Assembly (NCBI GenBank): GCA_001642005.1
Contig: LWCA01000293.1
Span: 1 to 33,319, forward strand
DNA from: Intoshia linei
Taxonomy: Eukaryota > Orthonectida > Rhopaluridae
Direction of reading: 5' to 3'
Length of the DNA: 33,319 bases
The notes under the pieces are model-generated. The model saw nothing but the letters and a program-made list of their open reading frames with translations, did not search any database and was not told the DNA's origin. Positions 387 to 24,612 of the stretch are shown piece after piece; positions within the stretch are counted from its first letter, which is position 1, and the number at the start of each line of letters is the position of its first letter. Both the position numbers and the translations under genes were made by a program.

Positions 387-2741
387 GAAGTAAATTTTTA
401 GTTACATTAATATAAAATTTATACACATTAATGACAAAAAGTATCCAATTTCTGATTAAAGAATTATAACCAATGAAAATAGACAGTAAATTATTTATTT
501 AATTTGTAGGCCTTGCCTATTGTAAATAAATTTGAATAATTCACAAACGACCTCGGAAAATTAGCATTTACATGTTAATAATATTTTTTAGCTTGTAAGA
601 TATTAGTCATCTTAATTTTTGATGGAGTCATTTCGGTTCATGTTATTTTTTTTATTTATCCATGTTTAGTATGTAATTATTTTCCTTTTATATTTAGTCG
701 AAAATATTTCCTATTAAAATAATTATAAAAAATTTACTATTTTAATTTAGACAGTAACGATTAAAACATCAATTTATTTACCTTTCATTTTTTTTTCATT
801 TTTATTTTAAATAGATGGTATTTCAACATAATAGCTTAATTAATAATGTCTAATACAAAAATTTAATAAAACAATAAAGTCGGTAAATTATTACTTACTC
901 ATCAAAATATTTAAAAATTTAAAATGTGTATAATTTTATCTGTTAAAATTATTTAACAATATTTTATAGTTGGTATAATTATGCATAAATATTTGATGAT
1001 AAAACTACAGGCATTATTTTTTTGTATTTTAATTTGTAATTTTTAATATTTAAGATAGTAAATATTTAAAATACATTTAAATGTATTTATGCAAAATATG
1101 CAAAAAAAAAATAAAATAAAAGAATAATAAATAAGAAATAAAAGAATAAAAGAAAAAAAAATAAAAATATAGTGATAATTATATTTGTTATGGATTAACT
1201 ATAATAAATGATATTGATAAATCGGACAAACAACAGTGTTTTTTATGTTTAAAGCTTTTTTCTAATTCTAATTTAAAGCAATTTTTAGCCATTCTAGATC
1301 ATTTTATTACCATAGTTACATATTAAATTTTTTCGAATTTAAGTTTTTTAATTTTTGCCGATACCAAATCGAATTTTATTGAATTAAGGGGTCCCAATAG
1401 AAAAAGGTTAAGAAACCGTGATCTAAGATGTATCGCTCTAACTATACATGACTCAAATTAATGTCGCTTAACTATGTTTGCCATTTTTATTTATTAATTT
1501 TTTACTCAGCTAGTAATGAATACATATATTCTAAAATTTCATTATCTTGTGTATATTGTATTGTTATATTGCAAAATTTTGATTTAATTTCACATATGAT
1601 GCCATAAATGTAATCCAAAACAGTTTGTAATTTACACTATTTTTATTATTAAAAATATCTGTAACACGATATATGATATAAAAATGATAATAATTGTATA
1701 CATACAGTGTATATTGTAAATGTGTATAAATTTAGATGGTACATATTTTGGCGGTATTATAAATATTTTGAATTATTATGTTACATATAAAAGTTAAGAT
1801 TGAACTTAACCAAAGGGAAATTGTGGTTTATCAAACCCTGAAAATTATACATATTTTAGAATTAATATCTATTGCACTATCTATATCTAATAAACATGGT
1901 TTATGTATGATATTAACAGGAAATATACATTTATAATGAAACACAGATGGTAAATTTAAATATTTAAAACTACTCATATTGAACTTTCATCTACTACATA
2001 GCGAGTAAATCCAATATTCAAATATTTTAAACCTTTTTGCCAAGTTTTAAATTTTTTTAGCTTGAAAATATGTTTTACATATTAATTATATAATGTCATT
2101 TATTATTATTTAGAGAGTATATAATGTTATATAATGAATATATGTAAAATTACTGTGAGATGTATTCATTTATGATAATTTCAATAATTATTAGAAAGTA
2201 AATAATAATAAATACATAATAATATCACTATTAAATAAACTCTATTTATATTTGACAATTGTAGGCAGTATTATATTAATTCATCGTATTTAATTTATTA
2301 TTTATATATTCTGTTAATTTAAAGAGGGTACATACAAATTACATACAATTACTTTTAATATTACATGATATACAAATGTAGTATATATAATTATTAACAT
2401 AAATATTTATCAATACATGTAGACGGTTATTTCATTTATTTTTTATAAATGATATACTGAATAGATTTTAATACTCTATTTAGAAATTAATGAAATTGGT
2501 AATTTAAAAATATTTATTTTTATTTAAATTATTTTAAATTACACTAATATTTACCATTTTATCTATCAATTATCTAATTTTATTCTAGAAAGTAAATAAT
2601 AGTCTTTAAAGTTTAAAATATGAAATGATAAAATATTATTTGAATATAACATTTTTTAAATTTAAATTTTTAAAATTTTATTACATTTTGTCAATAAAAT
2701 TATACATTATATTAATTTGCGTTTAGTACAAGAAAAAAAAT
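387..2741 (+). CDS. Microexon block 1 (21 three- or fifteen-base exons and one uncertain one)
   Basis: Exons by first base: 387 GAA, 483 ACA, 592 CTT, 670 TAT, 751 ACA, 815 ATG, 880 TCG, 970 TTG, 1055 ATA, 1510 CTA, 1624 TTT, 1736 ATG, 1947 ATG, 2002 CGA, 2114 AGA, 2195 AAA, 2265 GCA, 2325 AGG, 2423 ACG, 2484-2498 (15 nt), 2589 AAA, 2727-2741 (15 nt). In the phase-1 frame they read NTLYNVVDTIYDAKKSKDE, then INEIEIQEKK. A 12-nt unit at 510-521 (TGTAG acceptor, GTAAAT donor) would keep the frame, but it would leave a 24-nt intron after 483, well below the 51-nt minimum elsewhere in the array, so it is left out. The intron between 1055 and 1510 (452 nt) contains a hAT-like end near 1390-1430. 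Units at 880, 1055 and 2325 use AAG acceptors and are weaker. Confidence 0.8.
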
Positions 2742-5700
2742 GTAATTTTGATAAAAATAAATAGACAAACGTATAATATAAATGTTTTTTCAAAGTTCTA
2801 AAAAGATATACAAAAAATCTAATCAGTCAATATTACTAGTGTTCAAAACCAGTTTTTTTCATTTCAGAAAAAAACATAGTTTGTAGTATCATAACCGATT
2901 TATTATATACTTATTATCATTCAAATCGTGATTTTAAAGTTAAAGGAAAAAGAATTTTATGTGGCTAAATAATTACTAAATTCATTAAAAAAAATTTATA
3001 TGCAGAGGCATAAGATAAAATTAATATCTGGTTTATTATATTTAAATAATTCAAATTAATTAAAAAATCGCAGTTTCCCGCTTTACACGAAAAAAATAAA
3101 AATTTAATTTATTGTAACATTTATTGTGTTGAGTAATGTGGACTATACTTACAAGTTTATATATTTATCTTAAGAAATGTGCCCTAAGTCAAAAATAGTA
3201 GATAATAATATAATGAGTGAGTATTTAAATTAAATTAAAGATTTGAATACACCTAGAAGAAAAAAATTGTAATAAAAAAACATTTATAGATATATAGAAT
3301 AAAAAACGAATAAAGTGTTTTTATAAGTCAAGCTGAATAGACTATTAACGATAAAGCCGTTGAGTTTTGAATGAGAACTTATATTTTCCAAATTATCAAA
3401 CTTTCTATGTCAAAAAAGGATTAAATTAGACTCGTTAGTGCTTGACGCAATTTTATTTTTACTATAGCTATAGCTATAAATTAGCAACAATTTTCTAGTA
3501 TAGTACCGACGCGATATTCTGAAAAAAATTCGGAAACTTACCACAGTGTTAAATTATTGCTATATTGCAATTACAATTATATTCTTATAAGACACTAGGT
3601 TGACTGATGTGATGACTGACAGCACCTAGCTCTGCCGAGGGCCATTTTCATTATACCAAAAAATTTTGCTATTCACTACTATCAACTTTTTAAAGGAGTG
3701 GTTACCGAATTTATTTCAGGTGGAACCGTCATATCACATTACTTTTGACTTTAAAGTGAATTATTCTATCTTAATTTTTTTTGTTAACACATTTACATAA
3801 AGAATTTTAAAAACAATTGTTATTTCATTTTTTTAATTTATTAGACAGAATGTGTGCATAATATTAAAAATTAAATAAAAACAATCCAATCCTAAAATTT
3901 GTCATAACTAGCATAAATTTCAAAAAAAATAAAATTATAAAAACCTATTTTGTCATTTTCAATGTGATAATATGTATTCAGTAACGATTTAATAAATATT
4001 TAAAAATACAAATTATGTATCAATAATTAACGGAATTAGCACTTTATAAACATATTTCATGTGAATTTTACCAATATTGCAAAGGATTATAATAAATATA
4101 AAAATGATAATAACAAAGTTGTATTACTGTTAGTAATTCGTTGTTGTAGTTTTAATTTAAATTTTATACAAAAATATTTTGAAAATGAGAATTTGAGATT
4201 TAAAAATTGCGTAGCAATGAAAAAAATTCCGAAGGAATAAATTATATAGATTTTCACACATATTACTTAATTGGAAATGTGTAGATCGTCAATACACATT
4301 TTTGTTGAAATTGTAGGATCAATATTTACATTTTCAATTTTTATTTTAATCGAAATATTTTGAAAAATAATGGTAGATAATATATTAAAAATTATTTTTC
4401 ACCGGGAATGCGTAGATTTCTGGGGTTGAACTTTTGTATTTATATCAACTGGAATAAGCTTTATCAGACTAATCTTTATTTTTAATTTTCGGACCCTTAA
4501 TTAATTCACATTTTTTGTTTAATATATAATAATTCCAAAGTAATTAATTAGAGTAATTAAAGTTCAGATAATTAGAATTTAAACACATAAAGGTGGGTTA
4601 AAGTAATTAAGATGTGTCAATACTGATAAATTATTTTAAAATCATTGTAAACTATTATATTTTTCAATATAAAATAATACAATAAATAGATAGTAAATAA
4701 AAAATTTTTCAATATTTTGTTTATAATGATTTTAACTAAAATTTTGTAGTGAGTAATACATAAAGGAGTTTAGTACATTATATATAAAGTGTATGTTTTT
4801 AAATATTTTTGCAATTTTATATTTAACATATTATAGCTGGTATTCTTATGTAATGATACTACTTATATAAATGACATCCTATGAAAGGTATAATTTATCG
4901 AGTTGATAAAGAAATATTTTATTGAGAATGGATATGCAATGGAAATTAATATCCCTTTTGAATTATTTTGGAATGTATTGTCTCATCACTTTCTAATGTT
5001 AAAATATTATTAATAATGTTATTATAGTCAGTAAATATAAGTTTCATAATGTAGTTATTTATCATTATTATTAATTATATATTATTGTTTTACATCTTAA
5101 ATAAATGATCTAAATGAAATGGTCAACCAAAATTTATTGTTACTACATCAGTATTTTTTGCTCTATTCTATATATCTATATTAATCATGATGAAATGAAT
5201 ATTTAATATACATTTTAAAATTTAGCTGGTAAATACTTTATGTATACATAATAATTGTATAAGTTACATATAATATTGAAGAACATTTAAAATACATTCA
5301 ATTAAATTTATTCTGAAATGATTTCATATGTTCATATTCATAGAAAGTAATAAATTCCATTATGAAAAGATTTTATTCTTATATAATCTTCACGTAGAGA
5401 GTAATATATATGCAAAATTACAAAATATCAATATAATTTTTTCGATTAATTTTATATTATGATATAATTAAACATTTACAACATCAAAAATAATGTTAAA
5501 AAACTAAAACACTAAAACACTGTAGCCAGTAAATACATATTATGTATAATAATCATTATTTTCCTTATTCTAGATTATTGTATACATTATAACATGTTAT
5601 TATTTAGAACGTAATTATATAAAACATTTGTATTGCTAATCAGCATATTGTGCAATTTACCAGCAATTAAAAAATCAGTATTTAAATAAAAATTAAATAT

Positions 5701-8700
5701 TCATTAAAAATTAAACATTAAAATTGATTTTTTTAAATTGAGTAAATATTAATGAATTTAATTAGATTGTAATTTAATTATTTCGTATAAATTAAATTCT
5801 AAATTATAATTTGAAGGTTTTCATAAGATGAAAAACCAAGCTGACTAGAATGAGAAATAACTAAAACAGCAATTACATGTAGATCGAAAATGTATGAAAA
5901 AAATTGAAAATTTCAGTCTCGTGAAATTATATTATAGTATTCAAAATGTCTGCATTTTTTCTAATTTTATTTAATTTTAACTCAAATATTCAAATATATT
6001 TTACTTACAATTAACTACTCGTAAAAAGCTTGTGTTATTAAAATTGTAATAAATGCATATGTATTACTACTAATATATTAGTAGTTGTGACATTTTAATT
6101 TTAATTTGTAGTTAACAAATTAAATTCAAATTAATAATACATGTATTTAAAATCATTCAGTAAGTAATATGTTTTATATTTTAACTTTTTAATAATTTTA
6201 TTATTATTTAATTTAATTTAATTATTTTATTAGGGCAAGTTTTTGAAATTTTTTTAAAAAATTATAAACATGGCCCTAGAGTCTAGGGTGTGAATTTTAG
6301 TTGTTTTTTTGGAAATTTTATAGATAGGAACGTATAAATTCGCGTATGACAGTTTTATGGCTACACTGAAAAAACTTTTCAAAATTCCAATATATTCGTT
6401 AAATTCCTCAAGTCCCACCAGTCGGCCTAATCCCACGTTTAGAAAACAATGATCTATTTTTTCAATTTTATTGTGGTGAATATAAATTTTAATAAGATTT
6501 TCATTTTTTTTGCAATATTTTCAATTTTTTTGTAACTTTTTAGTAGCTCTAATAATAACCTAGTTATAATTATGTATTGTACTAATCATTTAGCTTGTAA
6601 ATAATTTATTTTATAATAATAGTAGACATCACAGTTACCTATAATATTATTGTACAATTATAAATCTTATATAGACGTTTCCAGTAAATTTTCCGGCTTC
6701 TAGAGAGTTACCATACTTTGCTGACTAAATTGGGTTTAATGCCAAATTAATTTTTTAATATTGTTTCGTTCCATATATTTATACGTTTTATATATATATT
6801 TACATTATAAACAGTAAGTAAATTACACTTCATGTTTAATATAAAATTAATATTTTAAATATGATTTCATAAACTGAAAATAGGTTGTAAAATATATTTC
6901 AATTTTATTTAAACTAATTAATACGAATCGACGGAAATTAGTACATTGGAATTTATAATATGAAATTTTTATACTTTCTACGAGTTTATAATATCATTTT
7001 ATTTCCAAAATACATTTTGCGCTAGATGCGTGATATATAATGGATGTGACATATGTAGTACTTTAAATACTCAATGTATTAATAGTATATTTTATTTATT
7101 AAAAAATTATAGATTGTAATTTTATACTGTATAATTTATATCGTATTTCTTAATTTAATGTCTCTCGCGCCCTATTTTTGTAATTAAAACATTGCGCAAC
7201 CCGGTTACAAAATCCTGCTGTACAGTAATATTTTGCAGTATAAAATTTTTATGCTATAATTACAATTATATAGTATAATTTTATTTAACCGAATAAACTG
7301 AAAAACCACTTTTTTATTATTTCATAAGAAGTGACTTGAAAAATATCACGCTTCGATATAAAAACTCCTATTTTATAATTTTACGTGCCAAAATCCTTAC
7401 ATAACTTATACTAAATTTTACATATATTTTATACAATGTATACTATACATGTATAATTAGAAAGTTGATTATATTGAATATCTTATATTAGTCGGTAATA
7501 TAAAGTGGTTATTGTATTGTGTACTGAGTCTCAAACATTTATAAATTTAAATTTAAAATAATTTAGATGAATGTAATACAATTAAATTGATTCATTATAT
7601 TTTATATTTATTGGAATAATTTTTTATTTTAGTCGGTAATTTCCAATAAATTTTTAAAAAATTTTTTAATAAAAAAAATGTTAAAAATTAAACTTTACAT
7701 TAAATTAATTTCAATTAGGATGTAATTACGCTACAATATACATATATAAATATATGTACTACTGTCTTTTCTCGATTATAAGCAGACCCCTGAAATACAA
7801 ATTTTCAGTGAAATTTTATACTAAATAAAATTTGAATATAAGCGCAGTTTCTGCTTGTATTCGAAAGAAAGAACTTTAAACAAAAAATAGACAACATATC
7901 AATTTATTTTTAAAAATTAACTTTCTTCATACAATACAATGTCTAATTTGAAGTTTTGCTTTCACCATATACAATATGTTGTTTATGCAATTCGTTGAAA
8001 GTAATCAGAGTTTCAAATTTTTTAGAAGCAACAAAAAATTCATTAAGATAAGGTGATTCGGAAGTGTTTTTAATATTTTCAATGTACTTGTAATGATTCA
8101 ATATTTGAAAGTAAGCTTTAATGATCAAATGTTTAAATTTAAAATACGTTTACAATTAAGTTATGTTGATTGTGATTATTGTTGTTATAGTGATTGTTTA
8201 TAAGGTAATAGCTAGATATTAGATATGATAGTGGTGTATGAACACTACAGTACTCATAATTAATGATATCAAGCGGAACCAAATATTCTTTAAGTCCTTC
8301 ACAGACCTCATTTTTTCATTTATAAGTTTCATCTCAAACAAATAGATTTTGAGAATACCCCAATATGTAATTTAATACAAATTTAACGAGTTTTTAAAAT
8401 ATAAAAGCAAACTTTTAGTGTATTTTTTATATTTTTCAAGGTCTGCTTAAAAGTCTGCTTGTTTTTGATTATAAGCATTTTTCCTTCTACTCTCGAATAT
8501 GAAAAGACTTCTTATAATCGAAAAAAGACAGTAGCTTATGATAAAATCATACCTAATTTTTGTAACTTGTTACAAAATAGGGGGTAAATAATATTGATAT
8601 TAACTAAATGTATTATATTTAATAATTATAATGATTTTATAATAATTTCAGCTTGTAATACATAATAATTAATTTTGTTTACAATTATTTAGCATTTACA

Positions 8701-11700
8701 TTTTACATCAATTAAATTTTTTAGTTGGTAATAATATATCGATTATTAGCCATTTTCAAATTGAATAATAAATAAGTAAACACAACTAATATACTGTCAT
8801 ATAATTTTAGAAAGTATATTTTTTAATTAATCTAGTTTATAAAACATTATTTTCATGTCTGAAATGATTATATAATCATGAACGCTTAGAAAGTAATTAA
8901 TATTATTAAGTAATAAAGTAAATAATTATAATACTAAATATTTGTACATACTAATAATACTAATTAAAATGAATACTATAATAATTATGTGTAAATACAT
9001 GCATGTATTATTATTAGCTAATTTTATGTATCTGAATACTTGTAAAGTCGTTAAAAGATTGATTTATATTAATAGTGTGTAAATATACATTTTTTTAGAT
9101 AAAAACTTTGTATAACATAGTCATAATAAATTTTAATACAAATAAATACAACATAATTATATTCAGATTGTAAGTTTTTTAATATACATGTATTTAATTG
9201 TTTTGTCTTTATATTGAATTTGTTAATGTGTTTTATTTATATGAAAGATTGTAATCATTTAATACGTTTATTAGATTAGTGTATTACTGTGGTTATTAAC
9301 TTTTTTGTGTAAAGCACCGTTGAAGGTTTATAATAAAGAAATAAACTCAAGATAATTTTTAACCTAATATATAAAGTGGAATGTTTGGGTAAGTATTTTT
9401 TTGATTTATTTCGAAATTAAATTAAATAATACATTTTTTATAAAGAATTTTAAGACTGGTATTATCATTAAATCTATCGTTCATGTATTTCAAATGAAAG
9501 TGGAGCCTCCACTATTTATTCCGTTATTCATATTTTAACTATTTGCAAAATAATTTTCAAAATTTAATAAAATTTTGCATGTCTTAATTCCCTGATAACT
9601 AAAATAAAATTTCAAAAAATTTACGAGTTCCAGAATTATAAAACTTATGAGTACCACAAACATAACATTTTATATGCTAAAAGTAAAAATAATTTTTATT
9701 GCAGTAAGTTTGGAAATTTTTTTTTCTAGTTAGTGCATGAATACTACTGTAGTTCACTAAAAAACTGTACACATCATATAATATCGATAATGTTATCAAA
9801 ATCAATAATAAATAGTCAGTAAATCATTAATATATTAATTTTATCATATATCATATATGTATGTCATTGAAATTATAATTGTGTTTATGTACAAATTTTC
9901 ACGTCTATCGAAGAACCAAATACAGTCATGCAGTAGAATTGGTGTATTTAAAAAAATATAAATTAACATAATAACCCCATAATAATCAAAGTATATATCC
10001 TTGAAAGTGAAAAAATTTGAAATTTTTAATATAATTCATGGATAAGTAAATATTATCGATATTACCTGAAAAAATGGGCATGTAAATCAATTTTATGATA
10101 GTTTTTATTATTTTAAATAACAAAAAATAAAAATGTACATTGTACAATAATAGTAAATCACACGTTTATTGTAAAAAAAAAACTGATGGGAGGTATTTAT
10201 TTAGCTAAAACACTAAACCTTACAAATAATACATTTTTAATTAGTTGGTAAATTTAATATAATATATTATATTATTTAAAATACATACTATGCAGTTAAT
10301 GTATTGCAGTCAGTTCATTATATTCTCAAATTTTAAGTAGACTCAAAAATAATTGAATAATTATAGTAAATATACAGTTAATTTAATATTAAGTCATTAT
10401 GAGTGTGTTACGAAATTAATTTTGGTTTTATTCTAAAATAATTAAACACTTTTCATTTTTTATATTGATACTCAAATAATATTGAATTATTAATACTATT
10501 AATTTACAAATTACGATTAATAGTTTCTAATAATTATTAGTAAACCAAATATGTTTTCCTCTGAAATTAATATTGGATAGAAACCACTATATGTCTATGT
10601 ATGTAATATAGAAAATACTAAGATCTGACTGTAAATAAATGGTTCAGTTTGTTTATATTGATTTCCAGATGGTATATTAATTTTGATGAAAACATTACAT
10701 TATATTTTTAATATAAATTTTTGAATAAAATAATATTAACAATAATAATGATATTATAGATCGTAAATTTATATTACACTTTACAGATTATGGATAATAA
10801 ATTATTATAGATCTATCAATAACTATTGCCTATTAGTTTGTAATAAATATTTAAACTTTAAAAGTCAGAATTTTTATTTTGTTAATAAAGTAAATAATGC
10901 CAATTTTCAGTGTGTAATTGAATAGTTATCATATTAATATATTATTATTAGTATTATTATAAAATAATGTTAATAAATTCTAAAAAATATGAAGGTATTA
11001 CCATTTTTATGTGTAGTTGGTATTAAATTTAAAATTAAAAAATATTAGTGATATATATAACAATTGGATACCTTTTTATAAAGTATATTTGGTAAATAAA
11101 GGGATGCAAAGTAACCATAGACTTTGGATATATTGAATAATTATAATTCACATTTTTATTTTACCAAAAAAATAAATTCACGTTGAAAATCTAGCTTAAA
11201 AATCCTACTATTGACTATTATCAATCCTTTAAAGGAGTGGTTCCCAAACTTGTTTCAGGTGGAACCGTCATATCACATTACATTTTACTTTAAAGTGAAT
11301 TATTATATTTTAATTTTGTTTGGTTAACATTTGCGTAAAGAATTTTAAAGACATTGTTATCACATTTTTTTAATTTATTTTTTTTTATATCAACTGGAAT
11401 AAGATTTATCAGAATAATATTTTTGTTTATTTTTCTGACTGTTAATTAGTTCACATTTTTTGATTGAAATTTTTTTGTGGTTTAACAGGATACAACTGTA
11501 CGACCTGTAAATTTTTTAAATTCTACTGCTATTTTCATTAAAAAAAGGGTCATTTGTGGTTTTGGCCCTAAAGATAAATTTTTTTTTAATTAAATTTATA
11601 ATAATATTTATGATTTTAAAATCCGTATCAGAGTATATATTTTTTTAATTTCTCGAACTCGTTTGATTTTCAAAAAAAATAAGAATTTGGCTTTTTGACC

Positions 11701-14700
11701 ATGTAAGATGTGAGTTACGGAGGTTGAAATTTATTTTGCTAACACCAGAAAAAAATTTCATTGAAATTTGGACTTTATAAAATTCTAACACAGGTAGTTA
11801 CTGAAATAAACGATGACATACACAGACAAACAAAGCATATTATATAAGTAATAATTATATTTATGAATGCTATACCTTGTTTCATTGAAACAGTATTTAT
11901 TAAATTGGAATTGTTTTATGATAAAAATTTTTAGTTGGTACAATAAATTTGTTTTTTATATGTAAAATAATAAATATGTTAATATATTAATGTATAAATA
12001 TGTTAGTCAGTAATGATTTAATATTATTATAATAAATATTATTATTAGTGTATATGTATATGTAGGTTACAGGCAAAATTCAAATTATACACGTTTTATT
12101 TGTTAAAGCAAGTATATTAAAACATTAAGCGTTGATAAATATTGGGAATATTATGAAAGATTGATAAAATTACAAAATAATGTAAATGAACCCAGAATAA
12201 AAAATGATTGGAACATTTTGAACTTATTTTTTAATCTATTATTATATTATATTTTATGTTAAATTAATTAATTAGGTCAAATTTTCAAATTTGAATTATT
12301 ATTCACGTTGCTTGTTAAAATTTGAAAATTGCCTGTAACATATATACTTCAGCATCATTGATATTAATAATAAATCATTTATATATATCATAATTTAGAA
12401 GGTAAAATTGATATTTTAATATAACGTAATGTGTTGTTAATTATGTTTACATTCACCAATTTAGCTTGTAATATATTTATGTTTAATTAATGGAAGCATA
12501 TACTTATTAAATATATTAATTTATGCAATATTAAGCAATTAAACAATATTTAAATTTTAAATAGACATTTTTAAATAATATTTATTCAACAATTTACAAC
12601 AATATTAATTACATTAAATTTCGAAAAAATATGTCATTTCTTAGTTTGTAAATTTATGCATTCATTTATAATTTTAATTTATAAATGCATGTAAATAATT
12701 ATTAAAAATATGAAATACACGTATATTTCCTTATAGATTGTAAATTTGAAGATAATAAAAAATTTCATTAATTTTTCCATAATTTAAATTTAAAATTTTA
12801 ACAATATATTGACACTTTATTTAAGATGGTATGTGATTTAGAATAATTTTATTTTTATTTGTGGATTCATTTTTTTAAATAATTGGCTTGATAGGAAGTA
12901 TGTTTTATATTATTTATGAATTATTAATCATAATTTATGATATATCAATTATGAACGTACAATATACTATTAAATTAATTTAATTTATTTTTTCAATAAC
13001 CGAATATACTTTATTAATAACTTAATACAATTGTCAAAAAATACGAATTTCTTATAATTAGATGGTATTACATTGTATTAATTGTATTGAGTAATATAAT
13101 TTTATATTCAAACTATTTTATTTAGATATATATATATATGTATTTATACAATTAATTATTTCAGACAGTAATTTTTATAAAAATGAAAATAAATAATAAT
13201 ATAAATCATACATAACAAAAAATGTGAGATAAAAAAATTTTTATTATTTTATATATATTTATTAGAAAGTAAAAATTTAAACTTCAATTTTCGACTTATC
13301 TTATAAATTAATAATATAATTAATAATATTAATCATGTCATTAATATATTAATACTATCAATCAATATTGATTAAATAAAAATTTTTTTTAAAATATAGT
13401 CAGTAAAAAATACACTAAACTACGTTTTAAATCAGCGGTTCATAAATGCAAGTTCAAGGTCACTAAAAATCATTATTAATAATTATTAATTACATATTCA
13501 CAGAAAAAAATTAAAAATTTTAACATTGAACCAAGAACGTACATATTTTAGTAATTATATTAAGTGGCAGTGAAAAAATTAATGTATAACTATGATTTCA
13601 AATTGCGATAATTATCGATTTGTAATGTAAAAAATTTTGAGAACTCTTGTTTTAAACAATGATTATGATAATGATAGTGTGTATAATGCAAAATTAAATA
13701 GAATGTAAATAATTTCATAAATAATAGTGTACAATTGTATATTATAATTTTGAATAAAAATAAATATTTTTATCGCAATAACTGATATGTAAATCGATGA
13801 TAAACAAATATTACCTTTTATTTAGCTTTTAACATACCAAATGTATATTAACAAAGTATATTCTTACGTGTATATTTAGTGTGTAATTTTAATTCAATTA
13901 ATACATGTGTATCATTGAAATATGTAATACATTTTGAACTCGTAAATATATTTCTTTAATTTACATAATATTATAGCCAGTAAATATTTACAACAGATAA
14001 TACAGTTTCCGGTAAAGTAGGTGGCGCGCCACCCATTTTAACTTTATATAACTACTATTGAATTAGTGAATGGAATGATAATGCGAATATAAATATACAT
14101 AATATTTATTATTTTATGCAATATACAATGTATTGCAATAAATATGTAAAATGTATATTATAAATGTAGTAGGTATTAATATATGATTTAAAATTTAAAA
14201 AATGTAATATATATTTATTTTTTTTTATATTCACGCTAGCATGTATATTTATTTTTACAATTCAGTAGACACTAGAAAAGTGATCACACGCAACGATTAG
14301 TCATTTAGTACAGGAACCAATACCATACTACAGAGTTTTATAAAACTTAAATCTTAAAAATTCTTCTTCTACAAATTCTTCTGGAACAAATTTTAAAATC
14401 ATTAACATTTTCAAACATTTTAACCTCAGAAATTTACACTATCATTGTCAACACCTCAAATTACCCCTTTGTTTGAAAATGAAAATAAATAATCAAAGAA
14501 TTATATATAACATAAATTCTGGGATAATTTTTAAAATCATAAACATTATCATAAATCGCAACCTCAAAAACTAACAGTTTCGCGATTAAAGCCTTAGATA
14601 ACACTTTTTTTAAAAAATGAAAAGTCTAAGAATTTTTTAAAAATTGCAGCTCATAGTTATTTTCAGTAATCATGATAAAAAAATAAAAAATTTAACTATG

Positions 14701-17700
14701 ATTTAATTTTTTTAAGGGTGTATAGTAATTTCTATAGTCAAAACAGTCATAAAGTCAAAAATCTGCCTTAAATAGTTATTCAAAAAGTTGGTTCTCTGCA
14801 GAGCTAGCTACTGTTTGAACCAATTTTTTAATACATAACAGTTTATCTGATTCTAACTAATGTGTAATAAATGCATCTAATTAATATTTCATTGGTTGTA
14901 GAAAGGTTTCTATAACAATGTGTCATTTTCGAATCTACTGAATTAATAAAAAAATTAATTTATTTTTTTAAAAAGGAAAATTTGGGACATCATTATTTGG
15001 GATTGTGATATCATCTATGGGATTAAATGTCATTATAAGCACATTTTAGATCGTAATTATATTCTGTACAAAAATTTATCAATTACCAAAATTTATATTA
15101 CATTGAACAGATATAAATAATATTAAAAAACAATAATTATAATTAATAATAAATGTTATGATTGTATTAATAACAAGTACTGATCATTATAAATTTAGAA
15201 AGTAAAAATTAAATTTTTACAAAATTATTAAAATAGAATATGTAAAAAATTACATTGATACAAACAATTACATTATAGTATGTAATACATATATTTATTA
15301 ATTTAATACATACAATATTATTTACTCTTTTTATTTATAATAAACGTGTAATTGACATGTATCATTTAGTAAGTAAAAATAAATTTTAGTTAATAATTAT
15401 TTGGTGTTTATTATAATAAACACTTTCATCCCCTATGTGGGACCTGGGAATTTTCAAAGTTATATGAAAATTATGAATATAATTAACACTGCATATAAGA
15501 GCAAAAGCCACAGTATCAAGACCACAGGAAACAGAGACTTCAGGGCTCAATAAAATTGATCAATTTCATAACTGTTTTGTGTGAATAAATTAAAATAAAT
15601 TAAATTTAAATTATTAAGTTTATATCCGCTCAAATGTGACTAAGGCTGTTTGGTAATATGCACCTTTTTCTATTTTTTAATGACTTATTTTTAATTTCTC
15701 TATTCTCTAAAACTTTATTTTATGTGTAAATCTCACATTTCTACTTAATTAGATGGTAATACTTTTTTCTTATACTTCATGTATACGTTTATGATTTAAT
15801 ACCTGTCGTACAGATTTCGACAACTTGGGCGATTAAAATTTTTTGGTTTCACGTTTAATAAATATTGTACAATGTATATGTTGACATGTTTTATTCAATA
15901 TTTAAAATTGATAAATATATATTATAAATAATAGATAATAATATAATTAAATTACTATAATCCATAAAAGAAAAATAAAAAATTTTGCTTATTTTTAATT
16001 ATTAGAGTCCGTTATAAATTTTTGGGGAGACGGATAGAATGTGATCAAAAAACAGAATTTTTTAATTTAGGGGGCGATAATTCAAAAAAGGTTGAGAATC
16101 CTTGATATAATGTAATAGAATAACATAATACATGCCCATATTGTATATATTACAGATGGTAACATTATATTAATGCATATGCAAAACATACTTTATAATA
16201 TAAACTTTATATTAAATATTCAAAAATGTGGCCCAAAGAATTTTTTGATATATACTAATGGCCCACGAGATGCAAAAGGTTGTCGACTCTTGATGCAAAG
16301 TTTATATTATAATATGATTAATTATACATACTTTATGTACATCTCTATTACTATGTGGAATCCACAGTGTGGATGAGAAAATAAATTACTACATGTAATT
16401 TTTAAATAAATAGACAGTAAATTATAAATAAATACTTTATACAAAATCTATAATAGGGATGATAACTAAATATAAAAATATTAACCGATTAATTAATTTT
16501 GACATATTATTAAATTTGAAAGTATGAAAATATTTCGAAAGTCTTGATTTATAAACGAAAAACTAAAAAAATCGTATGTGGAAAATATATGTTCAAAAAA
16601 TAAATCTTAAAGACCCTCATTACATTCCAGTAAAAAAGTAAACCCCTAAAAACCCTAATCATATTTTGGTTCAAAAAATAAACCTTAAAAGCCTTCATTA
16701 TATTTTGGTACAAAATTTTCTATCTTTATTTAATTTTTAATCTTCTTTAAAATTCAATGGCTGTTTTGATTTTTTAAGAAAAGGGTAATTTTTGGTTTTT
16801 GCCAAGATATACCTTTTTAAAATAACTAATTTATGTTAATATTCATAATTTTAAAATAGACATTAGAGAGTATATTTTTTTAATTTCTAGGACTCGTTTG
16901 ATTTTAAAAAAAGGATAATGTGGGTTTTTAAGGGGAAAATATATTTTTGGTTGTAATTTTCTAAAATGTGCATTGATCTTACTTTCTCATTAAAAAAATC
17001 TGACTTGGAATTTTTGTATGTTAATTTCTAGAGCTCTTAGTTATTGAAATAAACGATAACACACACTCAGGCAAACACACAAAAAAAAAGTTTTATATAC
17101 GTCAGGATATGTATTGCTTTTAATTAATTATTACTGAGGTTGAAATTTTGAAAAGATATTTTATATTGATTTTGTAACGAGAATTTACATTTTCATGTAA
17201 ATATATAACCAGTTATCAACAGGTTAACGATTTCGAGTTATTTATTATCCCTACTACTACGCTAACATGATGCATAATTTATATCTTAATAAAATAATCT
17301 TAGAAGGTAACAAAAAATGAATAATTATAATTAATTACAATATAACGTATGGTAATCAGTGATGGGACGTATTATTTGTGAATAATAATTTGTGGAATAA
17401 GTACATTGTGTCATATAAATAAACCAACTCTATATATGATATGGTTTACGAAATTATGCATAAATAATATACAATCCCATAAGTAATTTTCATTAACTAT
17501 TAATGTACATTTTTACCACAAGACTGACACTATTGACATCACTCATTTATTGTAGATACACATTCAAATTTATCTCAAATAATATAATTCAATTAAAGTT
17601 GGTATTACTTAATTATTTCATTTGATGGTGTACTACACTGTAGACATGATTGATCTATCATCATTCATCATATTAGTCATTATTATTATGATTTTAAAAT

Positions 17701-18197
17701 TACAGTAGAATTAAACATAGTACGTAATTTATATATTTATTATTGTGAAATTCATAATATGTGATATTGTATAGTACAATGTATAATGTTATACCATAAA
17801 TAATACATGAAGTAATTTGTACAGTGTAAAAATAAAACTTAAATAAAAAATATTTAGTGGAAGGTAATTATATATATAATAATCATGTAAAATATTACTT
17901 ATTCTTAATATATTAGAACATTATTATTTAAAGTTCAAAGAGCAAATAAAAAATAAAATAATTTTTTGATTTTAGACTAATGGACCAGCCAAGATTAAAT
18001 ATTTTTTAAATTGTTATAGTTTTTTAATTAAATATATATATTTTTTATCTTTATACACAAAACAAACCTCTGAGTGTATACGTTAATTTTTATCACGTCT
18101 CAATGAACAATTTAAAATTTCTGAATTTTATTCAGATAGTACAATTTATGTATTATAGTATACAAATATATAATCCTAACAGGTGTCAAAACTGGAT
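387..18197 (+). CDS. Gene built from single-codon-sized (3-nt) exons; unknown product of about 98 visible residues
   Basis: Seen: 82 units of acceptor-AG, exactly three bases, donor GT, plus exons of 15, 15, 6 and 6 nt (and one probable extra 6-nt exon), all on the + strand, spaced 51 to about 1950 nt apart. Acceptors are mostly TTTAG, TATAG, ATTAG or TTCAG and donors GTAAAT, GTAATA, GTAATT, GTATAT or GTATTA, the same consensus as ZMAT2 and UTP4 in this window. Joined in order, exon-as-codon reading hits TGA (4750), TAA (6161, 6815, 15370) and TAG (14170). The third frame also hits stops. Only the phase-1 frame (last base of one exon plus first two of the next) is open from 387 to the end. 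The predicted peptide includes YFDEFGWAFEKMYYFIVNDL, encoded by 7113-10839; I recognise no family. The exon lists are in the five block entries. The 5' end is not found and is probably upstream of the window. What is inferred: that these are real exons. Transcript data would settle it. Confidence 0.82.
3650..4520 (+). repeat. Dispersed transposon-like repeat, copy A
   Basis: Two segments, about 3668-3805 and 4440-4515, recur with high similarity and in the same order near 11210-11470. The first includes the string AAAGGAGTGGTT followed by GGTGGAACCGTCATATCACA. The copy lies in the longest interval between microexons (2742-4689), so it is probably an insertion that lengthened that intron. I see no transposase ORF and cannot assign the family. 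Weak microexon look-alikes at 2880, 3218, 3849 and 4285 fall in or near this interval and have poor donors or acceptors. Confidence 0.65.
4690..7721 (+). CDS. Microexon block 2 (18 three-base exons and one six-base exon)
   Basis: Exons by first base: 4690 ATA, 4750 TGA, 4837 CTG, 5028 TCA, 5226 CTG, 5344 AAA, 5398 AGA, 5526 CCA, 5608 AAC, 5766 ATT, 6161 TAA, 6594 CTT, 6815 TAA, 6884 GTT, 7113 ATT, 7492 TCG, 7567-7572 ATGAAT, 7633 TCG, 7719 GAT. The phase-1 reading is YMTVTEKTKHLTLSYFDEFG. Three triplets here (4750, 6161, 6815) would be stop codons if each exon were itself a codon, yet they are split harmlessly in this frame. That is the strongest internal argument for the phase. Look-alikes with poorer donors at 6704 (AGA, GTTACC) and 7461 (AAA, GTTGAT) would each create a stop at the junction and are rejected. 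The same holds for a 6-nt unit at 5574. Confidence 0.82.
7759..8534. mobile_element. Non-autonomous DNA transposon with terminal inverted repeats
   Basis: The left end CTACTGTCTTTTCTCGATTA (from 7759) is repeated in inverted orientation at the right end, where GATTATAAG-type sequence runs into GACAGTAG at 8527-8534. The inner flanks (TATAAGCAGACC on the left, AAGTCTGCTTGT and AGGTCTGCTTAA on the right) also correspond. The element fills the 859-nt interval between the microexons at 7719 and 8581. It contains only a short minus-strand ORF (7943-8128) that I do not recognise. The ends recall pogo/Tigger-type elements, but no clear target duplication is visible, so the class is an inference. Confidence 0.65.
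8581..11019 (+). CDS. Microexon block 3 (16 three-base exons)
   Basis: Exons by first base: 8581 GGG, 8652 CTT, 8725 TTG, 8811 AAA, 8890 AAA, 9076 TGT, 9167 ATT, 9248 ATT, 9816 TCA, 10245 TTG, 10310 TCA, 10669 ATG, 10760 ATC, 10837 TTT, 10912 TGT, 11017 TTG. The phase-1 reading is WAFEKMYYFIVNDLLF. The unit at 9167 has the textbook donor GTAAGT. The unit at 10310 has a weak donor (GTTCAT) and 9248 an AAG acceptor. Weaker possible units in the 565-nt interval 9251-9815 are 9377-9388 (12 nt, GTAAGT donor, AAAG acceptor), 9705 TAA (GTTTGG) and 9730 TTA (GTGCAT). All keep the frame and cannot be decided from sequence alone. A 6-nt unit at 9275 would introduce TAG and is rejected. Confidence 0.8.
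11190..11470 (+). repeat. Dispersed transposon-like repeat, copy B
   Basis: Second copy of the repeat at 3650-4520, with the same two blocks brought close together (about 11210-11350 and 11388-11465), so the middle found in copy A is missing here. It lies in the 915-nt interval between the microexons at 11017 and 11935. The following stretch to 11850 belongs to a different repeat. Confidence 0.65.
11540..11850 (+). repeat. Second dispersed repeat family, copy 1
   Basis: Shares several blocks with 16690-17100 (+) and with the complement of 18535-18800: a TTTTTTTAATTTCT block followed by ACTCGTTTGATTTT, a GTGAGTTACGGAGGTTGAAAT-like block, and an ending with TTATTGAAATAAACGAT then ACACACA/CAAACA-rich sequence. 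There is no coding potential. It looks like the conserved part of a non-autonomous element or the 3' end of a retroelement; the class is not determined. Confidence 0.6.
11935..14242 (+). CDS. Microexon block 4 (17 three-base exons, one further uncertain)
   Basis: Exons by first base: 11935 TTG, 12007 TCA, (12109 CAA, AAAG acceptor, uncertain), 12399 AAG, 12465 CTT, 12645 TTT, 12737 ATT, 12826 ATG, 12895 GAA, 13062 ATG, 13165 ACA, 13266 AAA, 13400 TCA, 13702 AAT, 13880 TGT, 13977 CCA, 14170 TAG, 14240 CAT. The phase-1 reading is VV(T)KAFYYGNDKIKLSIA; the bracketed T depends on the unit at 12109. A unit at 13678 (TGT, GTATAA donor) lies only 21 nt before the 13702 exon acceptor and would create a TAA junction, so it is rejected. 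An 18-nt candidate at 11489-11506 has good sites (ACAG, GTAAAT) and keeps the frame, but it appears to lie in repeat-derived sequence. Confidence 0.8.
13433..13650. mobile_element. hAT-type MITE
   Basis: The ends CAGCGGTTCATAAA and (complement of the right end) CAAGAGTTCTCAAAA are inverted repeats of the hAT type. They are flanked by nearly identical 8-bp duplications, TTTTAAAT on the left and TTTTAAAC on the right. There is no coding capacity. It lies in the interval between the microexons at 13400 and 13702. Confidence 0.6.
14020..14033. repeat. GC-rich perfect palindrome
   Basis: GGTGGCGCGCCACC is a perfect 14-bp palindrome in sequence otherwise almost free of C+G. It lies within a microexon-gene intron, 41 nt after the 13977 exon. 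It may be part of a transposon end; no function can be assigned. Confidence 0.5.
14270..15000. repeat. Repeat-rich interval within the microexon gene
   Basis: An 807-nt interval between the microexons at 14240 and 15050 with no good three-base units. It contains a T/A-rich segment with internal near-repeats (TTTTAAAATCAT-AACATT at about 14390 and 14535) and a more mixed stretch around 14780-14820. It is probably one or more transposon fragments; no ends could be defined. Confidence 0.4.
15050..18197 (+). CDS. Microexon block 5 and possible 3' terminal exons
   Basis: Exons by first base: 15050 ATC, 15199 AAA, 15279 TAT, 15370 TAA, 15753 ATG, 16156 ATG, 16414 ACA, 17304 AAG, 17599 TTG, 17721 TAC, 17775-17780 TACAAT (probable), 17858-17863 TGGAAG, 18136 ATA. 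The phase-1 reading is YQILNDDKVVLQLE, then D at the next junction. Two endings fit. (a) The acceptor at 17974-17975, behind a T-rich tract, joins 17863 to AC followed by TAA, ending ...LED. (b) The 18136 exon joins an acceptor at 18181-18182 (44-nt intron) and ends SVKTG then TAA at 18195-18197. An AATAAA at about 18331 fits ending (b). Possible further units: 16867 AGA, inside a repeat copy, and 17360-17368 (9 nt, GTATTA donor). Confidence 0.75.
15995..16290. repeat. Fragments of hAT-type element ends
   Basis: Two stretches (about 15998-16105 and 16210-16300) end with AAAAGGTTGAGAATCCTTG-like and AAAAGGTTGTCGACTCTTG-like sequence, typical of hAT terminal repeats. They flank the microexon at 16156. 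A similar end lies near 1390-1430. The short + ORF at 16173-16376 comes from this sequence and is not considered a gene. Confidence 0.4.
16690..17100 (+). repeat. Second dispersed repeat family, copy 2
   Basis: Same blocks and same orientation as 11540-11850, ending in TTATTGAAATAAACGATAAC and an ACACAC/CAAACACA tract. It sits in the 887-nt interval between the microexons at 16414 and 17304. A TTAG|AGA|GTATAT unit at 16867 lies inside it and so may be a chance or repeat-borne splice-like site. Confidence 0.6.
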
Positions 18198-18213
18198 AAT
18201 TTAGAGTTATAAT

Positions 18214-18534
18214 TAAATTCAATACTGAAAAATATTATTTTATAAATCTAAAAATATATGTGCATGGTTAACTAGAGAGACATTCTAAAAAAATGTATAA
18301 CCACGGTTTATAGTGTTAAAATAACTCAAAAATAAATTATTTAACTAAGAACTAGGGTTGCAAATTGAAATTTACTCCATAAATTTTAACGTTAAATTTT
18401 TTTTAAAATTCCAAAACTAAATTAATCTTCATAATTTATTTAAACATATTTACATTATTAGTTAAAATAGTCCTTACTTCAATAATTATAATTATAGCAT
18501 ATTATAATATGCTATGCAATATTTGTTTGTCTTT
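18214..18534. other. Spacer with possible polyadenylation signal of the microexon gene
   Basis: AT-rich spacer after the latest possible stop of the microexon gene. AATAAA at about 18331 would suit the terminal exon ending at 18197. No ORF or RNA gene is visible. Confidence 0.35.
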
Positions 18535-18800
18535 TGTTTATTTCAATAACTACCAGTCTTAAAATTATCTATATTTTATAAAGTCCAAATTTCAAATATA
18601 GTTTTTTCCAGGGTGTTAGCAAAATACATTTCAACCTCCCAAACCCACATACACACATCTTACGGGTCAAAAACCCAAATTTTCTTTTATTTTGAAAATC
18701 AAACGGCAATGGGCAATTAAAAAAATATACGCTGATATTGATTTTAAAATCATAAATATTATCATAAATTTAAAAAAACCATATCTTTAGGAGTAGTCAA
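18535..18800 (-). repeat. Second dispersed repeat family, copy 3, inverted
   Basis: Reverse complement of the family at 11540-11850: it begins with GTTTATTTCAATAACTACC and includes AAAATCAAACGG and ATTAAAAAAATATA blocks. It fills part of the space between the end of the microexon gene and the 3' end of the VIPAS39 homologue. A looser relative of its distal part (TTTTAAAATCAT-AACATT) also appears around 14380-14560. Confidence 0.55.
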
Positions 18801-18881
18801 ATAATCAAATAATCTCAAGTTTAGACAAGTTTAAAAAATAAAAAATAGATATAAAAATTTAATATACACTTTAAATTAATT

Positions 18882-20453
18882 TTAATTTTTCCAACGAACA
18901 TCTTTATTAGAAATGGTATTATTTGCGAAATCTAAAGCATAAGATCCTTTTCTAAGTCTAGGTAACAATTTAACAATAGATTGCCGATCTCGCCAATCCA
19001 AATATATTTGTATGATAATTTCAAAACATTCAAGCCTCTCAGCAACTTCTAGCCTAGATTGAACATTGGGAATCAATGAACAAAACCTCATAATAACTGT
19101 AGATGGAGCATTAACCTCAAAAAGAGTGAAAGCAACATCCTCAATAGTAATGACATTATCATTGATAAATTTATTAAAAATGGATTTTTTTTTAAACATT
19201 TTTTCAATTTCATCATATTCACTCCTATGTAAATGTAATTTGATAGTAACCCAACAATTTTGTTGTTTAGATATTTTAAAAATATTGGCTAATGAAGAAG
19301 CTGATCCAGTAAAATTCTGAATATTACATGTATATAAAGAATCTAAAACGGAAGAATGATCATTAAATAAAACTTTGGATATTTTCTCAGGATCATTTTG
19401 ATTCAAAGTGTGATGTTGCCATTTGACTAGATTATGGTGTTGGTTAATCATATTTAAGAGTAAATAATCATCAGTTTGAGGTATAGAAATGGAATTGTTG
19501 AGATTTGTGAAACATTTAAATTCCTTGTTGGTGGGTTCCACTGAAGACATGGAAGAAACTGAAATATTTGAAGAGAGTTTGGACGTTATTTTTAAAAACG
19601 CCACATTACTGTACGAACCCGTCTTAAGATTGAAATTATCATTTTTATCCAGAGTGTGCATTTTAGAAAAAGAGGAAATTTGATCTTTTATAGTTAAAAT
19701 AGTGTTAATGGCATCATCTGAAATGGTATACGAGCTATTATTTTTCATTAAAGCAGGATTGAGGAATTGGTAAAAATACATGATAAACGCATCTCGCCTT
19801 CTTCCGATAAGAATATAAAAATTGAACAAATCTACATAATTTTCCATTGAATCAAGATGTGAAATGTAAAGATTAATCGTAATTTGATTTCGTTTGATTA
19901 AATGAACAAATATTTCAAATCGAAAAATTTTTTTTAAATGTAGAATAACCGTTAAAATTGAATCACCACAACCCAAGGTACAAACATCCTCCAACAATGC
20001 TAAAGCGTCTTCTTTTGTTGTGACGCTTATTAGCATTGAATCAACGTATGCATTTTCAAACGAATCGTAGTCTAAATTGTATTTACTAGCTACTAAATCT
20101 CTAGCAATTTTTCGTAAATTTGCGTCAACTGAAGTGGATGGTGTGAGTCTAGATTTATATGCTATGGATGACAAATTTCTGCCGTGTTTAATCGTTTTTT
20201 TTACATTTATAAAATTACTCTTATTTGTTTCGGTATTTTGAATCTTTTTTTGAGTACTATTTTTAGGTTGTATTATTAAAACTTTTTCGTTCAATGATTT
20301 TGGTACCTGTGGAACTTTTAGTGATTTTTTAGGCTGTTTTTCTATGACTGTGTTTCCGTTCCAATCAATCAATTCATTTTTTATATTGACATCAAACATG
20401 TTTGCGTCGTTGCATTTTTGCGCAGATGAAGCGTTCCAATAATCATCAGACAT
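18882..20453 (-). CDS. VIPAS39: VIPAS39 / SPE-39 homologue (VPS33B-interacting trafficking protein)
   Basis: Uninterrupted ORF. The family partners VPS33B in the CHEVI complex, acting in endosome/lysosome and lysosome-related organelle trafficking in the cytoplasm. The N-terminus has the MSDDYWNASS motif (family YWNSS), the middle has a Vps16-C-like helical region (around residues 110-480), and the protein ends in VRWKN directly before the stop, matching the conserved IRWKN end of vertebrate VIPAS39. I choose the Met at 20453 (523 aa, close to the 493 aa of the human protein). An in-frame Met 13 codons upstream would prepend a hydrophobic stretch not expected for the family. The neighbour ZMAT2 is divergent, 159 bp away. 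An ATTAAA on the minus strand near 18860 may be the polyadenylation signal. The absence of introns contrasts with all other genes here. Confidence 0.9.
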   Translation of the reverse strand: MSDDYWNASSAQKCNDANMFDVNIKNELIDWNGNTVIEKQPKKSLKVPQVPKSLNEKVLIIQPKNSTQKKIQNTETNKSNFINVKKTIKHGRNLSSIAYKSRLTPSTSVDANLRKIARDLVASKYNLDYDSFENAYVDSMLISVTTKEDALALLEDVCTLGCGDSILTVILHLKKIFRFEIFVHLIKRNQITINLYISHLDSMENYVDLFNFYILIGRRRDAFIMYFYQFLNPALMKNNSSYTISDDAINTILTIKDQISSFSKMHTLDKNDNFNLKTGSYSNVAFLKITSKLSSNISVSSMSSVEPTNKEFKCFTNLNNSISIPQTDDYLLLNMINQHHNLVKWQHHTLNQNDPEKISKVLFNDHSSVLDSLYTCNIQNFTGSASSLANIFKISKQQNCWVTIKLHLHRSEYDEIEKMFKKKSIFNKFINDNVITIEDVAFTLFEVNAPSTVIMRFCSLIPNVQSRLEVAERLECFEIIIQIYLDWRDRQSIVKLLPRLRKGSYALDFANNTISNKDVRWKN

Positions 20454-20612
20454 TTTATAAATGTGAAAAATTACAATGTTTAATAGTACCACTGCGATTT
20501 AACTTATTTATTTTCTTGTTGTCGTAGTGCTTAGATTTGTATACAATTTTTAGTTTATTGATTTTCAATTTTTTGGATTGAATATTTCATTTAAATAGTT
20601 TTATTTGATCAA
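20454..20612. promoter_or_regulatory. Probable bidirectional promoter of VIPAS39 and ZMAT2
   Basis: Only 159 bp separate the two start codons, and the genes point away from each other. No clear TATA box or named motif can be assigned in this AT-rich gap, so the promoter role is inferred from the arrangement alone. Confidence 0.5.
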
Positions 20613-23610: not shown

Positions 23611-23694
23611 AAAACCACCAATACAATCGAAAATTATTCATGTCTATTAAATTTGTAAATATAAAATTGATAATTCTGAATTTTAAATGTTGTT

Positions 23695-23704
23695 AATAAA
23701 TAAA
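23695..23704 (+). terminator. ZMAT2 polyadenylation signal
   Basis: Overlapping AATAAA/AATAAATAAA 85 nt downstream of the ZMAT2 stop codon. Confidence 0.7.
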
Positions 23705-23803
23705 TTTTCAATATAAAACACTTCCTTACTTTTAATCTATAATCTTAATGTAGTATAATTTTTTCGTTTTAAATTTTATATAAATTCAATTTTTTAATTT
23801 AAA

Positions 23804-24612
23804 ATGTCTGATAGAAAAACATGGGATACTGATTATTATTACCGAAAGATTGAATTTCGAAGGAAAATTGTGTTTTTCCAAATGTTGAACAATTTGTAGG
23901 CAAAAAATATTTAACCCGTGATTATAAAATTGATATTGATTCAAAAATTGTAGATAGTCACGGTTGGGCTAATCAACGTGGAGGTTTGTAATTTAAATTA
24001 TCAATAGTTACATGCGTTTATTACAGTCCTATATTTTTAAACATTACAACAATCGAAACAATAAATATATAGTATACATTTTTATGCATTCACCAAATTT
24101 ACGGGTATTTAAACATGTACAAATGTGGTTAATTAACTAGAAATATTAATCGAATATTTTAACTTTTTAAATTATAGCTATTTTTGCAATATATGCAAAG
24201 TTCTAATAAAGGATTCGATAACGTTTATAGATCATATTAATGGAACAAAACGTAATAATATTAAAATCCTAAATTAAATAATCAGATCAAAGATGTTTGG
24301 GGATGTCTATGGTATTAAAAAGATCCACTCTACAACAAGTACGAGAGAGGATACATCTAAACAAAATGAAATTATTACCTAGTCAAATGAATACTTTGTA
24401 TAGTTTTGAAAAACAAGTTGAAAAGACAAAAACCAAAGATATGAAAAAGAAGTTGAAACGTATTTACACTTAAACATTTATAGAATGATTATCATTGACT
24501 ACAGTTAGACGAAAGAAAAAAAACTATGAAATTAGAGAAACAATACAAAGTGAATTCAAAAGACATGCTTAATATAATGGGATTTACGGAATTCGGCAAA
24601 AAAAATATTTAA
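23804..24612 (+). pseudogene. Tandem second copy of ZMAT2, frameshifted
   Basis: Corresponds exon by exon to the ZMAT2 homologue just upstream: 23804-23983, 24178-24251, 24286-24459, 24509-24612. Exon 1 opens MSDRKTWDTDYY but shifts frame and meets TAG at 23897; the conserved [15 protein letters not shown] lies in another frame. The exon 1 donor phase also no longer fits exon 2. Exons 2-4 remain open and correct in phase: the zinc finger YFCNICKVLIKDS...FIDHINGTKHQRC is intact, followed by LGMSMVLKRSTLQQVRERI, and the end MGFTEFGKKNI keeps the family signature. Introns are retained, so this is a DNA-level duplication and not a retrocopy. Introns 2 and 3 are 34 and 49 nt versus 1430 and 541 nt in the parent. 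AATAAA is at 24621. Intact exons 2-4 suggest recent loss of function, or a start I cannot see. Confidence 0.85.

Follow-up and report, generated by a model that had tools for sequence, protein, structure and literature searches.

The window, that is, the whole stretch of DNA that was analysed, comprises 33,319 nucleotides of contig LWCA01000293.1 (assembly GCA_001642005.1) of Intoshia linei, a tiny marine parasite belonging to the orthonectids. An array of three-base units, each preceded by an acceptor-like YAG and followed by a donor-like GTA, occupies positions 387 to 18138 of the forward strand (Table 1). Downstream of the array, a 536-codon uninterrupted frame (18882-20492, reverse strand) presumably encodes a protein resembling VIPAS39/SPE-39; at the thresholds used, it gave no Pfam family over the cut-off, no PDB match, and no other protein of the database searched. 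The first exon of a ZMAT2-like gene lies at 20613-20824 on the forward strand (PDB 'Zinc finger matrin-type protein 2', E 2e-7), and two adjoining blocks of tandem repeats of 28-29 and 57 bp, the units of which look mutually reverse-complementary, are located at 22078-22355. Forward-strand frames without Pfam match (31015-33006) look like pieces of a hAT-type transposase.

In a sequence-only reading, the array had been proposed to be a gene split into more than 80 exons of three bases. The excess of YAG-N3-GTA units on which this proposal was based is confirmed. Between positions 387 and 18138, 75 units were counted on the forward strand and 4 on the reverse strand, and other spacings are rare, as had been claimed: YAG-Nk-GTA occurs 0-11 times per k on the forward strand for every k from 0 to 30 except 3. 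In 500 dinucleotide-preserving shuffles of the same region, the number of YAG-N3-GTA was 5.2 ± 2.2, with a maximum of 13. Some of the original figures need correction. The reported 82 instances of AG-N3-GT proved too low (106 on the forward strand and 17 on the reverse strand), and the 74 units with both YAG and GTA become 77 when two edge-cut units are included. The claim that no two units are closer than 51 nt holds for 75 of 76 gaps, the exception being a single pair 21 nt apart. Gaps shorter than 40 nt make up 1 of 74 in the array, compared with approximately 12 expected under random placement. No excess at k = 3 was observed in the rest of the window (18139-33319; 5 units on the forward strand and 8 on the reverse strand) or in 50,115 bases of sequence taken from outside the arrays, where the k = 3 counts were 14 and 11 and those at other k from 0 to 7 were 8-25.

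Table 1. The array of the window: modelled exons, introns and individual candidate units (position 1 is the first base of the window)
Feature	Position	Strand	Remarks
Array, 87 modelled exons	387..18138	+	every intron in phase 1 for the open frame
Nine 3-nt exons, tight run	387..1057	+	starts 387 483 592 670 751 815 880 970 1055; introns 61-106 nt
Modelled exon starts	1510 1624 1736 1947 2002 2114 2195 2265 2325 2423	+	
Possible 15-nt exon, in phase	2484..2498	+	model, single case
Long modelled intron	2592..4689	+	exon before starts at 2589, exon after at 4690
YAG/GTA unit	2880	+	within intron 2592..4689; omitted by the model
Modelled exon starts	4690 4750 4837 5028 5226 5344 5398 5526 5608 5766 6161 6594	+	
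Possible 9-nt exon	6675..6683	+	model
Modelled exon starts	6815 6884 7113 7492	+	
Possible 6-nt exon	7567..7572	+	model; pooled k = 6 excess, 26 vs ~8
Modelled exon starts	7633 7719	+	
Run of 3-nt exons	8581..9250	+	starts 8581 8652 8725 8811 8890 9076 9167 9248
Modelled exon starts	9816 10245 10669 10760 10837 10911 11017	+	
Long intron	11020..11934	+	holds the repeat-matching segment 11431-11853
Modelled exon starts	11935 12007 12109 12399 12465 12645 12737 12826 12895 13062 13165 13266 13400	+	
Two candidates 21 nt apart	13678..13704	+	13678 TGT, 13702 AAT; model keeps 13702
Modelled exon starts	13880 13977 14170 14240 15050 15199 15279 15370 15753 16156 16414	+	
Possible 6-nt exon	16779..16784	+	model
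Modelled exon starts	16867 17304 17721	+	
Possible 6-nt exon	17858..17863	+	model
Last modelled 3-nt exon	18136..18138	+	model

Similar arrays occur elsewhere in the assembly. Twenty stretches were taken from 15 other contigs; these loci were chosen by their k = 3 patterns, two or few units being sufficient, and their k = 3 counts are therefore partly given by construction, which leaves the frame test described below unaffected. On 12 other contigs there is a clear excess at k = 3 that is limited to one strand; their stretches hold 16 to 45 units per contig, compared with approximately 2-4 per 10 kb at other k, and smaller groups of units are present on contigs C86, C881, and C7. Several array contigs are only about 10 kb long, so the genes may number fewer than the contigs. 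Over the whole assembly (34.65 Mb), a pattern of two consecutive units was found 107 times, compared with 70 for a reversed-pattern control, and the matches listed group by contig and strand. A stricter two-unit form gave 38 matches at k = 3 (control 18) and 8 at k = 4 (control 23). The k = 3 peak is confined to one strand in the array. Single units show no excess in the whole assembly (YAGNNNGTAAAT 1,252 vs 1,288 for the reversed pattern), and the arrays thus represent a small part of it. When 14 array sequences (the window and 13 loci; 104,862 bases) were pooled, YAG-Nk-GTAA[AT] was found 289 times at k = 3 and 4 times on the other strand at the same spacing, 26 times at k = 6, and 16 times at k = 15; most other k up to 25 gave approximately 8, climbing to approximately 15 towards k = 90. 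Exon sizes may thus come as multiples of three, k = 6 and k = 15 being raised besides 3.

Three nested sets of loci were used for the pooled analyses. The flanks and the first frame test are based on the window and 18 oriented loci, L010 (113 bp) and L014 (no k = 3 excess) being left out; the order control, the residue tests, and the exon model are based on the window and 14 loci, with L011, L012, L022, and L028 (few units) also removed; and L027 was additionally omitted from the pooled count of spacings.

The flanks of the units resemble the splice sites of the I. linei genome. Among 472 pooled YAG/GTA units with enough flank, T occupies position -3 in 84%, and few G are found upstream. The exon ends in G in 30% of the units, compared with a G content of 12% in the sequence as a whole; A is found at +4 in 79% and G at +5 in 6%. 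So low a frequency of G at +5 is atypical of animals in general. The introns of a chaperonin gene in the same assembly were delimited by eye; their donors and acceptors are of the type that flanks the array units, the donors including GTACGT, GTATAT, GTTATA, GTAATT, and GTAAAT. These introns are mostly about 35-50 nt long, with two of about 140-150 nt, and a median intron length of 57 bp is given for I. linei in PMC6543705. In the pooled arrays, unit-to-unit gaps peak at 60-90 nt, and 3 of 456 are shorter than 40 nt; the modelled introns have a median of about 100 nt, with one quarter exceeding 275 nt, and are somewhat longer than those of the chaperonin gene.

The long gaps of the window's array hold interspersed repeats, as introns do, which supports the view that the gaps are introns. 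The segment 11431-11853 matches repeats in L011, L012, L023, L024, L025, and L028, and in L024 and L025 these also lie inside arrays. A second interspersed repeat of about 0.9 kb (window ~3560-4540) is situated inside the long intron 2592..4689. It was found on at least 39 other contigs (40 of 3,655 candidates scored), its main matches being 81-90% identical, and is probably a transposable element.

The main evidence that the three bases are exonic comes from the reading frame obtained by joining the units. In the first frame test, neighbours 40-130 nt apart (YAG-N3-GTA[AT]) were joined, and the expectation was taken from shuffled pairing. Codons assembled from the final base of a unit and the two leading bases of its successor included 1 stop in 198, compared with 11.4 expected, and none of 2000 shuffles was as low. 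In the other two frames of the same pairs, the in-register codons included 13 stops in 198, and the remaining frame had 15 (17.6 expected). For the window alone, the neighbour junctions contained no stop in 35 (2.3 expected, P = 0.047), and those of the other loci contained 1 in 163 (9.0 expected). With the looser pattern AG-N3-GTA, 4 stops were counted in the open frame (15.3 expected), and the second frame was slightly low (20 vs 26.7, P = 0.04). The depletion is limited to direct neighbours in genomic order. In the order control, junctions from unit i to i+1 gave 1 stop in 181 (9.9 expected, P = 0.0003), while those skipping units gave 5 of 88 for i to i+2 (4.4 expected) and 3 of 47 for i to i+3 (3.2 expected), and those in reversed order gave 9 of 181 for i to i-1 (12.0 expected) and 3 of 88 for i to i-2 (4.6 expected). 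Because stops are depleted only from a unit to the next, the units appear to be spliced and translated in that order, and no other explanation was found for this restriction. The depleted frame is the one in which every intron is in phase 1, so that the first two bases of an exon finish a codon and its third base begins another.

These results support a gene cut into three-base exons and modify one part of the original proposal, in which the exons were described as codon-sized. Three-base exons are upheld; exons that are themselves codons in register are rejected, since the in-register triplets include stops (TAA, TAG, or TGA in 5 of the 77 window units). Non-randomness of the encoded residues was also considered as separate coding evidence and was discarded: it was significant at first, with a P of 0.14 after the removal of T-starting codons. 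As the junction residue excess is no longer significant without these codons, it is largely driven by stops, and the coding evidence rests on the stops together with two cases on contigs C86 and C347, described below.

The frame data bear on several other explanations. A DNA or RNA signal unrelated to splicing (such as a binding-site array, small-RNA promoters, or DNA-elimination signals), resembling the consensus YAGNNNGTAA by chance, would also be expected to appear as a strong motif on a single strand with a regular minimum spacing. However, its flanks would have no reason to look like the splice sites of this genome, nor would its three free bases carry frame information between direct neighbours only, and we regard such a signal as extremely improbable. 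It could also be proposed that the units are ratchet points, i.e., recursive sites that help to remove a very long intron and leave none of the three bases in the mRNA. The array does span 17.7 kb, and its acceptors and donors are nearly juxtaposed, as in Drosophila (PMC8605326). Ratchet points, however, look like zero-nucleotide exons, and k = 0 is without excess here (2 in the region); furthermore, discarded bases would not avoid stops at the junctions as the units do, which makes this explanation very unlikely. A further alternative accepts the exons and assumes their alternative inclusion, whereby exons could be skipped without frame shift and very many variants could be produced per gene. 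It is consistent with the divisibility by three of all modelled exons but one, a property favoured by the prior of the model, and the micro-exon genes (MEGs) of schistosomes are reported to diversify by alternative splicing (PMC10526429). Junctions that skip one unit nevertheless keep their stops, both in the order control and with the looser pattern (6 of 146 vs 6.2 expected), suggesting that selection does not act to keep skipped forms open. Occasional skipping is compatible with this result, and extensive alternative inclusion is considered unlikely.

Three-base exons joined in genomic order are also recovered by a Viterbi model, which is composed of splice-site profiles, intron length, and an exon-length prior favouring multiples of three, and which is blind to the frame. 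For the window, the model contains 87 exons (82 of 3 nt, three of 6, one of 9, and one of 15), amounting to 288 nt within 17.75 kb and to 95 codons without stop. The three frames of the joined exons hold 5, 13, and 0 stops, the open one being frame +2, and the 86 exons of 3, 6, or 9 nt have 0 stops in this frame compared with 4.8 after shuffling of their order (P = 0.002). It is hardly conceivable that candidates 13678 and 13702 are both exons, and the 88-unit string that includes both has one stop in the open frame. The array's first unit is found 387 bases from the start of the contig, so the 5′ end of the gene is probably missing. A terminal exon was sought in 18180-18880, and none of the 13 candidate acceptors stands out there.

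Over all 15 sequences, 475 exons were modelled, 439 of which are of 3 nt, 27 of 6, three of 9, and six longer; 474 of the 475 are divisible by three in length, as the prior favours. On the reverse strand, used as a control, the model yielded 1-2 exons per sequence, compared with 11-87. Frame +2 of all 475 exons includes 13 stops (in L013, L015, L018, L019, L021, and L025), 10 of which belong to L018, L019, and L021; the models of these loci hold exons of 31, 48, and 54 nt, which may be false. When restricted to the 469 exons of 3, 6, or 9 nt, frame +2 has 487 complete codons, of which 5 are stops (a single one in each of L015, L018, L019, L021, and L025), whereas shuffling the exon order within each locus 2000 times gave 22.9 ± 3.6, with a minimum of 11. 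Frame +1 of the same exons has 40 stops against 42.8 after shuffling; the in-register count of 39 barely moves under order shuffling and is no test. Some of the individual weak sites chosen by the model may be wrong, and some exons may have been missed. Decaying pseudogenes that once had such a structure would account for the repeat copies in several introns and for the lack of clear likeness between the arrays, but hardly for a window model in which 95 codons contain no stop and all 87 exons have usable splice sites, and decay of this kind is highly doubtful.

Further support for three-base exons, besides the recurrence of the arrays on other contigs, is derived from a candidate first exon on contig C347. 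A 79-nt exon begins there with ATG and ends in phase 1; the stretch that it encodes, MKSVTFFSGLLFVFIQLISYNYIEAK, resembles a signal peptide. A 42-nt intron comes next and then, in phase, the first 3-nt exon of the array. The 79-nt exon was chosen by eye and hydropathy among several candidates in the five loci scanned, and a similar, less clear candidate was noted on C488 in the same way. On contig C86, two tandem gene copies are 70% identical over a 1,035-base match. Each copy has cysteine-rich exons followed by seven candidate 3-nt exons, the order of which is kept; in the alignment, five of the seven share their columns between the copies and two do not. A change of TGG to TAG between the copies would turn tryptophan into a stop in register, while it preserves leucine in the phase-1 frame.

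The tandem genes of C86 (L012, reverse strand, ~1,090-9,400; L011, reverse strand, ~590-2,010) possess many cysteine-rich repeats, with one repeat per phase-1 exon in the cases examined, and, of five such repeats, three matched Giardia VSP weakly in Pfam, with scores under the cut-off. Cysteine accounts for 0.2% of the 487 residues encoded by the modelled peptides of the arrays. With regard to relatives, no protein related to the 86-residue inferred peptide of the window was found in the protein database, nor any candidate sharing three 5-residue words with it. The encoded strings of the arrays show no clear mutual likeness (105 pairs, mean z 0.09). The sole pair well above shuffles, L015 and L020 (z 4.8 among 105), might be relatives.

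Taken together, it appears very probable from these sequence data that I. linei has a group of protein-coding genes whose bodies are almost wholly composed of 3-nt exons, with all introns in phase 1. At least one of these genes seems to start with a signal-peptide exon, and the products are probably secreted; a role at the host interface is conceivable. With good though lesser confidence, we propose a class of genes, probably for secreted proteins, that the spliceosome reads codon by codon: nearly every codon would be split by a phase-1 intron, about 190 bases would be transcribed per amino acid, and dozens to perhaps more than 100 consecutive 3-nt exons would be joined in order without skipping.

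In such genes, spliceosomal introns, some of them enlarged by repeats, would be removed between the 3-nt exons, which, joined in order, would yield one open frame. Splice sites would be paired across the short introns, i.e., by intron definition, to which short introns are suited. Neighbouring introns would be removed successively, one by one, since there is hardly space on a 3-nt exon for two splicing complexes together. Each step might regenerate a usable donor in the style of recursive splicing, with the three bases nevertheless retained, and this donor would then mark the end of the spliced exon as it lengthens, where G is favoured at -1. The data agree with either direction of intron removal. 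The exon-junction complex is positioned some 20-24 nt upstream of junctions, so that no such complex could be placed for every junction. For a 1-nt exon of Arabidopsis, intron definition and recursive, successive removal were likewise suggested by the authors (PMC4674806).

Exons of this size are considered difficult to recognise, and the described cases that were found stand alone. More than 80 exons of 3 nt in one gene would imply that the spliceosome works repeatedly and accurately on almost no exon sequence, and splicing of this kind would be purely intron-defined and sequential; neither exon definition nor one exon-junction complex per junction could be accommodated. The order and fidelity of splicing with three-base exons would thereby become testable. 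Gene finders and read aligners easily overlook genes of this type, and similar proteins may thus have escaped notice in other parasites as well.

In the literature outside the principal genome paper on I. linei (Mikhailov et al. 2016) and most of bioRxiv, no gene of consecutive 3-nt exons was found among the titles and abstract openings listed. Microexons in Intoshia were not found among these either, nor by a term search of PMC12249979, in which orthonectids are described as highly simplified parasites. Isolated tiny exons are known from otherwise ordinary genes, such as the constitutive 1-nt exon of Arabidopsis APC11 (PMC4674806) and a 3-bp exon of Drosophila homothorax (PMC7392893), whereas here many are consecutive and make up nearly the whole gene. 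The arrays share with recursive splicing the adjoining acceptor and donor and, probably, stepwise removal; however, ratchet exons are usually dropped (PMC8605326), while the three bases here are apparently kept and translated.

Two families of microexon genes are closer in style. In schistosome MEGs, the short exons number 10-20 and measure 6-81 bp (3-81 in the abstract), mostly 15 bp; these genes code for secreted proteins of a parasitic worm with an N-terminal signal peptide (PMC10526429). The arrays are like MEGs in having many very short exons, mostly divisible by three; a signal peptide may be common to both, judging from the candidate exon on C347. The arrays differ in that 439 of the 475 modelled exons are of 3 nt, with 82 of these in one probably incomplete gene. 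No sequence relation to MEG proteins was found by word match with the 86-residue inferred peptide, which says little in a family so divergent. In aphids, bicycle genes have approximately 17 exons on average, many of them microexons, and a secretion signal, and nearly all of their internal exons start at codon position 2 (PMC9168663), the same phase as in the arrays. The megacycle gene of M. sacchari has 118 exons and 2092 amino acids (PMC9168663), or approximately 53 nt per exon by division. The CYC motif of bicycle proteins was not found in the modelled array peptides, and relatives without CYC or without cysteine exist. Aphid origin and membership in the bicycle family, suggested by AT content, neighbouring genes, and phase, were rejected: a 485-residue chaperonin frame of the assembly is 100% identical to CCT-delta of I. 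linei, an orthonectid, so descent from that family is very unlikely. A search with COX1 gave no match.

The arrays therefore look like a micro-exon gene at its lower limit, which MEGs and bicycle genes resemble in style and not in degree. If the proposed structure is correct, they would lie at the far end of a tendency that schistosome MEGs and aphid bicycle genes show independently of each other, and the occurrence, in unrelated lineages, of secreted proteins encoded in same-phase or frame-keeping microexons calls for a common reason.
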